64,000 nt of DNA from contig JAHFST010000001.1 in NCBI GenBank assembly GCA_023265625.1, positions 285,265 to 349,264 of the forward strand, given 5' to 3'. Source of the DNA: Deltaproteobacteria bacterium (GTDB lineage Bacteria; UBA10199; JACPAL01; JAHFST01). Each line of letters starts with the position of its first letter. Position 1 is the stretch's first letter. Below are positions 48,277 through 51,150 of the stretch, piece after piece. The translations under genes and the position numbers were made by a program. The notes beneath the pieces were generated by a model. That model had not been told where the DNA came from. It made no database searches and saw nothing but the letters and a program-made list of their open reading frames with translations.

Positions 48277-48576
48277 GTGCGGGTCATCTCAGTTAAAAGA
48301 TTAAGAGAGTTTTGGAAGCAGCCGGATTGTAAGGATTCAGAACAGGCGTTGCGTGCTTGGTACACAGAGGCAAAGAAGGCTTCTTGGAAAGGTCCTCACG
48401 AGATTAAAGCTCAGTACAAAAATGCGAGCATCGTGGGAAAAAATAGAGTAGTTTTCAATATTTGCGGCAATAAATATCGACTCGTGGTTGCCATTAAATA
48501 TGATTTTGGTATCGTCTTTGTCAGGTTCATCGGGACCCACAAGCAATACGACCGTGTTCAGGTTGAGGAGGTATAG
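48277..48576 (+). CDS. higB: HigB-type mRNA interferase toxin
   Basis: 99 residues from GTG 48277. The pattern MRVISVKRLREFWKQ ... DSEQALRAWYTEAKKASWKGPHEIKAQYKNASIVGKNRVVFNICGNKYRLVVAIKYDFGIVFVRFIGTHKQYDRV is that of HigB, a ribosome-dependent mRNA endonuclease of the RelE superfamily. The toxin comes before the antitoxin, as normal for higBA. It starts an accessory patch between the K+ transporter and the tRNA genes. Confidence 0.92.
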   Translation: MRVISVKRLREFWKQPDCKDSEQALRAWYTEAKKASWKGPHEIKAQYKNASIVGKNRVVFNICGNKYRLVVAIKYDFGIVFVRFIGTHKQYDRVQVEEV

Positions 48577-48578
48577 CT

Positions 48579-48935
48579 ATGAAGATAAAACCAATCCGGA
48601 CTGACAGGGATTATCAAGAAGCCTTGTCCTTCATTGAAAATCTCTGGAATGCGAAGCCTCGCACTCCCGAAGGGGATAAACTGGAAATCCTTACGACGCT
48701 CGTTGAAGCCTACGAACAGAAAAAACATCCCATATTGCCTCCGGACCCGATTGAGGCGGTTAAATTCAGAATGGAACAATTGGGGATGTGTGATGCCGAT
48801 TTGGCCCCTTGTCTCGGTGGTCGAAATCGTGTTTCCGAAATACTCCACCGAAAAAGATCCTTGACTGTCACCATGCTGAGAAATCTCCATCAAAAATTGA
48901 AGATTCCCGCAGAGTCTCTATTGGCAACTTCTTAA
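48579..48935 (+). CDS. higA: HigA-type antitoxin
   Basis: 118 residues, starting two bases after higB. The N-terminal part (TDRDYQEALSFIENLWNAKPRTPEGDKLEILTTLVEAYEQKKHPI) is the HigA dimer and toxin-binding region, and the C-terminal helix-turn-helix (IEAVKFRMEQLGMCDADLAPCLGGRNRVSEILHRKRSLTVTMLRNLH) binds the operator. It neutralises HigB and represses the operon. The stop lies 19 bases from the 3' end of convergent tRNA-Leu. Confidence 0.93.
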   Translation: MKIKPIRTDRDYQEALSFIENLWNAKPRTPEGDKLEILTTLVEAYEQKKHPILPPDPIEAVKFRMEQLGMCDADLAPCLGGRNRVSEILHRKRSLTVTMLRNLHQKLKIPAESLLATS

Positions 48936-48953: not shown

Positions 48954-49041
48954 TGCCCGGGGCCGGACTCGAACCGGCATGGACCTTTTTAAGTCCGACA
49001 GATTTTAAGTCTGTTGTGTCTACCGATTTCACCACCCGGGC
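48954..49041 (-). tRNA. tRNA-Leu (TAA)
   Basis: 88 nt, class II. Acceptor GCCCGGG/CCCGGGC, anticodon loop CTTAAAA with stem CAGA/TCTG, variable arm, and T loop TTCGAGT. Discriminator A at 48954; CCA is not encoded. Its 5' end directly follows the stop codon of the LAGLIDADG gene. Confidence 0.95.
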
Positions 49042-49686
49042 TTATAACGATTGCAGACATTGCAATGCCTGCGCGCGTTTTCGTGACAAGGCAAATTCTG
49101 CATTTTCATAGCATAACCCTAAAAATTTTTTCAGGGAATATTTACTACTAATCTTCAAAATATACGCACTACTTTCACCGTAATGCTCCAGATGAATAGA
49201 CCCTTTTATGGCATAAACCTCTCTGAGCCTCTGATCGATCCAACCCAAGAACGCTTGAGATCCTGATGTTATCTTGCAATACCACTGGCTAATCCGCTTG
49301 GCATGATCTTGCCAATTCCTAATGCAGCCGTCCCCATCCATCACACCGCGCAGAAAATGGCCAAAATGTTCCTCCGGTACCTCAATTTTCCTGATGGTCT
49401 TACTTTTATTCGGGGTTAACCCTTTTTCCTGTAAGAATTGGTGAAAAGATTTGGAACTTATTTGAACCCTAAAGGATTGTTGTCCCTGACCATTCATCTT
49501 CTTTGCCACGGAGCATTTAAATTCCATTTCAGATCTTAATAAGTGCAGAAAATCCTGCTCCTTTGCCGTGATGTCTATATGCCTCCCATCTTTACTTAAA
49601 CAGCCATCGCTGGTGATCAGTCCAACAAGGTACCACAGTTTTTTAGGAGCCAGGGATTCCCAAAAAAATGACCTTTTTTTACCCAT
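49042..49686 (-). CDS. LAGLIDADG homing endonuclease, free-standing
   Basis: 214 residues from ATG 49686, with AGGG and AGG just upstream; GTG 49695 is an alternative. Two LAGLIDADG-type helices are visible: LWYLVGLITSDGCLSKDG (residues about 20-37) and FLRGVMDGDGCIRNW (about 111-125), each ending in the catalytic acid. The spacing fits a single-chain two-repeat enzyme. There is no intein or intron around it; it occupies the spacer between tRNA-Cys and tRNA-Leu, with the tRNA-Leu 5' end starting at the base after its TAA. The tRNAs and the gene are on the same strand and probably processed from one transcript. Confidence 0.88.
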   Translation of the reverse strand: MGKKRSFFWESLAPKKLWYLVGLITSDGCLSKDGRHIDITAKEQDFLHLLRSEMEFKCSVAKKMNGQGQQSFRVQISSKSFHQFLQEKGLTPNKSKTIRKIEVPEEHFGHFLRGVMDGDGCIRNWQDHAKRISQWYCKITSGSQAFLGWIDQRLREVYAIKGSIHLEHYGESSAYILKISSKYSLKKFLGLCYENAEFALSRKRAQALQCLQSL

Positions 49687-49707
49687 GACCTGCACCCTAT
49701 CTTACTG

Positions 49708-49779
49708 AGGCGGCGACCGGATTTGAACCGGTGCATAACGGTTTTGCAGACCGTCGCCTTACCACTTGGCTACGCCGCC
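49708..49779 (-). tRNA. tRNA-Cys (GCA)
   Basis: 72 nt. Acceptor GGCGGCG/CGCCGCC, anticodon loop CTGCAAA in stem ACGGT/ACCGT, T loop TTCAAAT. Discriminator T is usual for tRNA-Cys. CCA is not encoded. Upstream (49780-49914) is AT-rich and probably holds the promoter for this tRNA, the endonuclease and tRNA-Leu. Confidence 0.95.
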
Positions 49780-50898: not shown

Positions 50899-51150
50899 TT
50901 AGCTCTGGGCGACGCGGTGGATGAGTTCGGCGAGGAAGGTTTGGTAGTGGATGCCGTGCCGTTTGGCCTTTGATTTCAACTCCTCCAGATCCTTATGGTT
51001 GACCCGGATGTTTAAGACCGCGTCTTTCTTCCGGGCCGCGACTGCCTGGGCGATTTGGTTGAATTCGTACCGGTCCACGTCAAGAAATTCCCCACTTATT
51101 AGCGCATCCTCGATTTCTTTCTCTTCTTTTTTTAGACGGGCTTTTTTCAA
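50899..51150 (-). CDS. orphan CopG/RHH-type antitoxin
   Basis: 83 residues, highly charged. The N-terminal KKARLKKEEKEIEDALISGEFLDVDRYEFNQIAQAVAARKKDAVLNIRVNHKDLEELKSKAKRHGIHYQTFLAELIHRVAQS matches antitoxins of the BrnA/CopG type with a ribbon-helix-helix at the C-terminus. No toxin gene is adjacent on either side (KamA gene upstream, AT-rich gap downstream), so it is an orphan or works on a distant toxin. Confidence 0.75.
   Translation of the reverse strand: MKKARLKKEEKEIEDALISGEFLDVDRYEFNQIAQAVAARKKDAVLNIRVNHKDLEELKSKAKRHGIHYQTFLAELIHRVAQS

Follow-up and report, generated by a model that had tools for sequence, protein, structure and literature searches.

In a stretch of 64,000 nt (hereafter, the window), ARAGORN, Rfam and the list of open reading frames (ORFs) place a tRNA-Cys(GCA) gene, an ORF with two LAGLIDADG motifs and a tRNA-Leu(UAA) gene in this order on the minus strand (Table 1). 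As the sequence-only reading of this DNA had proposed, the LAGLIDADG gene is free-standing, with both flanking tRNA genes on its own strand (ARAGORN, Rfam and Pfam agree), and it fills the 665-nt spacer between them, leaving 0 nt to the tRNA-Leu gene, which starts at the base (49041) after the stop codon, and 11 or 20 nt to the tRNA-Cys gene, depending on whether translation starts at GTG 49695 (217 aa) or ATG 49686. The ATG is the more likely start, since the relatives align from it, and the leader in front of it holds AGGG 8 nt upstream, a possible ribosome-binding site. The same reading was right that neither intron nor intein is involved: Rfam finds the two tRNAs only and no intron in the window, the ORF has its own start and stop codons, and we rejected an intein since inteins score weakly and do not lie beside tRNAs. 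We found no other endonuclease copies in this genome, which thus holds a single one. On the opposite strand, a gene for a HigB-type toxin (HigB_toxin, E 1e-33) and then one for a small protein that matches HigA weakly (48277-48935, plus strand) end at a distance of 18 nt from the tRNA-Leu 3' end, and a CopG-like antitoxin ORF lies at 50899-51150 on the minus strand.

Table 1. Features of the tRNA-Cys/endonuclease/tRNA-Leu locus in the window
Feature	Positions	Strand	Basis	Remark
tRNA-Cys(GCA)	49707..49779	-	ARAGORN; Rfam 72.3 bits	upstream gene
Leader, 20 nt, tRNA-Cys to likely ATG	49687..49706	-	sequence	
LAGLIDADG homing endonuclease ORF	49042..49686	-		214 aa from ATG; TAA at 49044-49042
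LAGLIDADG motif 1, LWYLVGLITSDG, acid D27	49603..49638	-	alignments of relatives	
LAGLIDADG motif 2, FLRGVMDGDG, D117/D119	49327..49356	-	alignment of 80 members	
tRNA-Leu(UAA), cognate tRNA of the clade	48954..49041	-	ARAGORN, Rfam	

Judged by its motifs, acidic residues and profile, the encoded protein is a LAGLIDADG homing endonuclease. It matches Pfam LAGLIDADG_3 in two stretches (E 7e-9), a profile that also matches all 80 of the relatives that we aligned, and D27 and D117/D119 (numbered from the ATG) are invariant across these 80 sequences. Only LAGLIDADG-type profiles match the window protein, in which no GIY-YIG domain was found. The closest solved structure is 2dch, a putative homing endonuclease, when the single sequence is the query (E 2e-7); a family-profile query also returns 2dch first (8e-15), followed by an I-DmoI/I-CreI chimera and I-DmoI. 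These best PDB sequence matches of the family, 2dch and I-DmoI, are both encoded in archaeal rRNA introns.

As a single-protein query was too specific and gave no match, we searched the genome contigs with a profile built from 11 sequences, which detected 485 relatives in the candidate contig stretches, and kept the best 80, mostly from Patescibacteria, with some from Chloroflexi and Omnitrophota. Of these best 80, 77 are followed directly by a tRNA-Leu gene on their own strand, and the ORF mostly ends within 25 nt of the tRNA start or inside the tRNA; two of the other three lie just 3' of tRNA-Leu(CAA) and one is at a contig end. With all loci pooled, 106 of 108 distinct free-standing members sit directly beside a same-strand tRNA gene, which is downstream in 99 and upstream in seven; the two unassigned members are L161, which has an antisense non-canonical tRNA-Cys nearby (read by eye), and L137, at a contig end. 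The ORF overlaps the downstream tRNA in 47 of the 99 and ends 0-10 nt away from it in another 43. None of 62 viral relatives lies near a tRNA, and we therefore rejected a chance neighbourhood of endonuclease and tRNA; plasmids, phages and viral contigs gave distant matches only. The earlier view that free-standing homing endonucleases between tRNAs are rare does not hold for this family of hundreds of relatives, in which tRNA adjacency is the rule. Fixation in all relatives together with degraded motif acids had been named beforehand as what would speak against it; in the window's class, nine of 46 genomes have 11 strong free-standing members between them, and the motif acids are intact. More distant free-standing LAGLIDADG genes lie by tRNA-Ser (GGA, UGA, CGA) and tRNA-Pro(GGG) genes (L054, L055, L057, L044, L166 and L162), and three genomes (G062, G064 and G073) each contain three or four family matches; a single contig of G073 has three, next to Leu-CAG, Leu-GAG and Cys tRNAs.

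We built a quick maximum-likelihood tree and labeled its members by their tRNA (Leu-GAG, -CAG, -UAG, -CAA, -UAA, -AAG, Cys, Asp or Met), reassigning the labels of L003 and L007 from their context. The labels require 11 changes on this tree, compared with 32-38 in 200 shuffles; each clade is devoted to a single tRNA gene. The window protein falls in the Leu-UAA clade. Four members of this clade, searched against 384 genomes of the Omnitrophota group around G067 at E<=1e-30, gave matches in 46 genomes, 29 of which are Leu-UAA-type loci. Adding the window, G033 and G026 brings the clade to 32 members, all located 5' of tRNA-Leu(UAA), and 29 of them have tRNA-Cys upstream. Two further candidates, L280 and L284, were rejected as members, their scores being too weak and their aligned sequences resembling Cys-type members. 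The Leu-CAA clade (L006, L013, L113, L121 and L156) lies 3' of its tRNA, not 5', a position that is not directly explained by the replacement of a tRNA 5' half that we propose below.

Several observations suggest where the enzymes cut. Just 5' of the ORF, Leu-GAG loci have a sequence, for example AATTAGTAGACGCTACTACCTTGAGGTGATATAAT, that copies the stretch from D-loop to anticodon of the tRNA-Leu(GAG) gene in its common, endonuclease-free form, AATTGGTAGACGCACTACCTTGAGGTGG; we call it a mimic. It has one extra central base relative to the tRNA: the spacing from D-loop to anticodon measures 9 for 33 of the 38 mimics that were parsed and 8 for all 110 parsed tRNAs. The anticodon part of the mimic matches the cognate tRNA at 37 of 39 readable GAG-linked loci and at 8 of 8 CAG-linked loci, and a -10-like box follows it. 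In the Leu-GAG and Leu-CAG clades, the mimic overlaps the endonuclease promoter and is probably an operator for autorepression. Alternatively, the mimics could be what is left of tRNA genes after invasion and decay, or no more than promoter sequence, which we consider unlikely. Real stumps do occur in the family (L007, with L134 and L092 similar in look), and by inspection the mimic contains -35/-10-like hexamers; however, the acceptor-stem part is missing, one base is added in 33 of 38 cases, the mimics are alike across loci with different local tRNAs, and the anticodon part, although it falls in the spacer between -35 and -10, tracks the cognate tRNA. No operator mimic was found in the Leu-UAA clade, and the window has just 20 nt between tRNA-Cys and the ATG.

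The linked tRNA genes themselves are biased in sequence. The exact Leu-GAG core is present in 17 of 56 endonuclease-free tRNAs versus 0 of 14 and 0 of 57 linked ones, and the UAA core GGyAGACGC in 18 of 48 free versus 1 of 32 linked tRNAs (Fisher p=3e-4), both being counts over related genomes that ignore shared descent. Within one order, linked GAG tRNAs are less similar to the target (Mann-Whitney p=2e-4, likewise ignoring shared descent). Many endonuclease-free tRNAs are without the core as well. The sole linked tRNA that has the UAA core, the tRNA-Leu(UAA) right after the endonuclease in L003 (G026; positions 2189-2540), has its anticodon loop interrupted by a group I intron (Rfam 74.5 bits). 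The endonuclease gene lies outside this intron, and here a free-standing endonuclease and an intron may be homing collaboratively to one site. In G021, a 22-nt 5' stump of a tRNA-Cys gene precedes the endonuclease and agrees in 22 of 22 positions with the native gene in a genome of the same family, and the ORF runs through a complete, different tRNA-Cys (16 of 22 positions identical to the native gene). On the simplest reading of these sequences, the native tRNA-Cys was broken in its D-loop and the replacement came with the endonuclease. Stumps of this type were seen outside the Leu-UAA clade, and the window contains none. Mimics, missing core and stump all point inside the tRNA gene, so that the target probably lies there, between D-arm and anticodon, and not in the spacer; if so, insertion of the endonuclease would leave the target uninterrupted. 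Cleavage of the empty spacer, which the sequence-only reading had suggested as an assay, is by the same token probably aimed at the wrong target.

The empty sites that this reading looked for among relatives do exist. Adjacent tRNA-Cys and tRNA-Leu(UAA) genes with no endonuclease between them occur in many genomes, with spacers of 1, 3, 10, 13, 17, 18, 21, 22 and 28 nt, the 1-nt spacer belonging to G005, a member of the window genome's order; further endonuclease-free spacers measure 73-263 nt. Three long gaps, of 826 (L034, G037), 686 (L327, G044) and 546 nt (L300, G043), contain no relative of the endonuclease. Such empty spacers, together with the exact position of the window insertion in the spacer and the intergenic tRNA target of the T4 endonuclease SegB (PMC2988022), are what would be expected from ordinary intronless homing at the Cys-Leu spacer or the spacer/tRNA junction, in which insertion destroys the site and the tRNAs are mere flanking homology. 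We nevertheless consider this improbable, because the endonuclease-free spacers share no obvious sequence and are unrelated in length, and so cannot be a shared site; moreover, the clades track tRNA identity, the mimics reproduce sequence from the tRNA interior, and the stump ends inside the D-loop.

A LAGLIDADG protein may also be recruited by its host, as are WhiA in transcription and the LAGLIDADG maturases in splicing. That the window gene is a domesticated protein that helps to mature, modify or regulate the tRNA next to it would fit the tight linkage, the clade-specific tRNA identity, the overlap of ORF and tRNA and the known domestication of LAGLIDADG proteins (PMC3984707), but it is very hard to reconcile with the patchy presence of the gene in the Omnitrophota group at the threshold given above, the same tRNAs in endonuclease-free relatives, the invariant motif acids and the 22-nt stump, which shows invasion.

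We therefore favor, as the likely explanation, free-standing homing by a tRNA-dedicated LAGLIDADG endonuclease that replaces the tRNA gene with a resistant copy. The enzyme would recognize the tRNA gene from D-loop to anticodon and cut endonuclease-free copies; repair from the invaded donor would then copy both the endonuclease and the tRNA gene linked to it, or at least the 5' half of that tRNA gene, and regenerate a complete tRNA whose altered sequence in the D-arm and anticodon stem would protect it from being cut. Under this explanation, the window tRNA-Leu(UAA) probably belongs to the target family and is probably itself a replacement copy. It is at most 86% identical to that of any sampled relative, while the window tRNA-Cys reaches 96%, as would be expected if the tRNA-Leu had arrived with the endonuclease; the divergence is spread across the gene. 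In its D-arm, GGTAGACAC stands in place of the canonical core GGyAGACGC. Since GGTAGACAC is also present in some endonuclease-free relatives, and the locus has neither mimic nor stump, resistance and replacement in the window are proposed by analogy with the other loci.

As for expression, no terminator-like site and no convincing promoter were found in the interval from tRNA-Cys to the ORF, and the promoter-like matches that lie upstream of tRNA-Cys do not exceed those in shuffled sequences. We infer a joint tRNA-Cys/ORF/tRNA-Leu transcript, in which read-through from tRNA-Cys would probably provide for expression of the endonuclease. By cutting at the 5' end of tRNA-Leu, RNase P would make the stop codon the end of the mRNA and may thereby limit expression; where the ORF of a relative extends into the tRNA, the cut would fall before the stop codon. 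A wider proposal takes the family as a natural cleave-and-rescue drive, in which tRNA genes are cut and linked resistant copies put in, a cut-proof mimic represses the endonuclease itself in some clades, and RNase P processing is built into expression control; we judge this to be evenly poised between right and wrong. In synthetic Cleave-and-Rescue (ClvR), a cutter is coupled with a recoded version of its target gene that resists cutting; the pairing of cutter and resistant copy is alike, but ClvR is engineered, whereas the system proposed here would be a natural bacterial homing element.

Like the window gene, SegB is a free-standing endonuclease within a tRNA cluster, located between tRNA-Arg and tRNA-Ile of T4, and it promotes inheritance of the tRNA region (PMC2988022); however, it is a phage-borne GIY-YIG enzyme with an intergenic target, whereas the present family is LAGLIDADG, chromosomal and divided into many tRNA-specific clades, its target probably lying inside the tRNA gene. 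Mobile ORFs in fungal mitochondria (Allomyces and Glomus; atp6, atp9, cox2 and nad3) insert an endonuclease into a gene, bring a diverged replacement gene end and leave the native end as a stump (PMC3630166), much as in our model, although they concern the C-termini of protein genes in mitochondria, and the window family mostly the 5' parts of bacterial tRNA genes. The T4 intron endonuclease I-TevI represses itself through a mimic of its homing site that overlaps its own promoter and is bound but poorly cut, the cutting motif being at the wrong distance (PMC2988022); the mimic that the Leu-GAG and Leu-CAG sister clades have at the endonuclease promoter, longer by one central base and absent from the window, resembles it as a putative operator, though I-TevI is GIY-YIG and intron-encoded. 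LAGLIDADG enzymes also spread through conserved RNA genes in CPR bacteria, where they lie in rRNA insertions and are mostly single-domain, such as the homodimer I-ShaI (PMC11270868), unlike the two-motif members of the present family, which lie outside introns and beside tRNAs. Free-standing homing, SegB in a tRNA cluster, the I-TevI operator and gene-end replacement are known already; for tRNA-dedicated LAGLIDADG genes in bacteria, we found no description in the literature covered, which left out most subscription journals and preprints, and the bacterial family is large and apparently undescribed.

If our explanation is correct, selfish nucleases dedicated to single isoacceptors would be reshaping the tRNA genes of small-genome bacteria, which would account for diverged tRNA-Leu genes and for horizontal tRNA replacement. 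The family would also offer a natural precedent for synthetic cleave-and-rescue drives, as well as a great many two-motif enzymes whose targets in conserved genes could be predicted, with the operator mimics as a guide to their recognition sequences.
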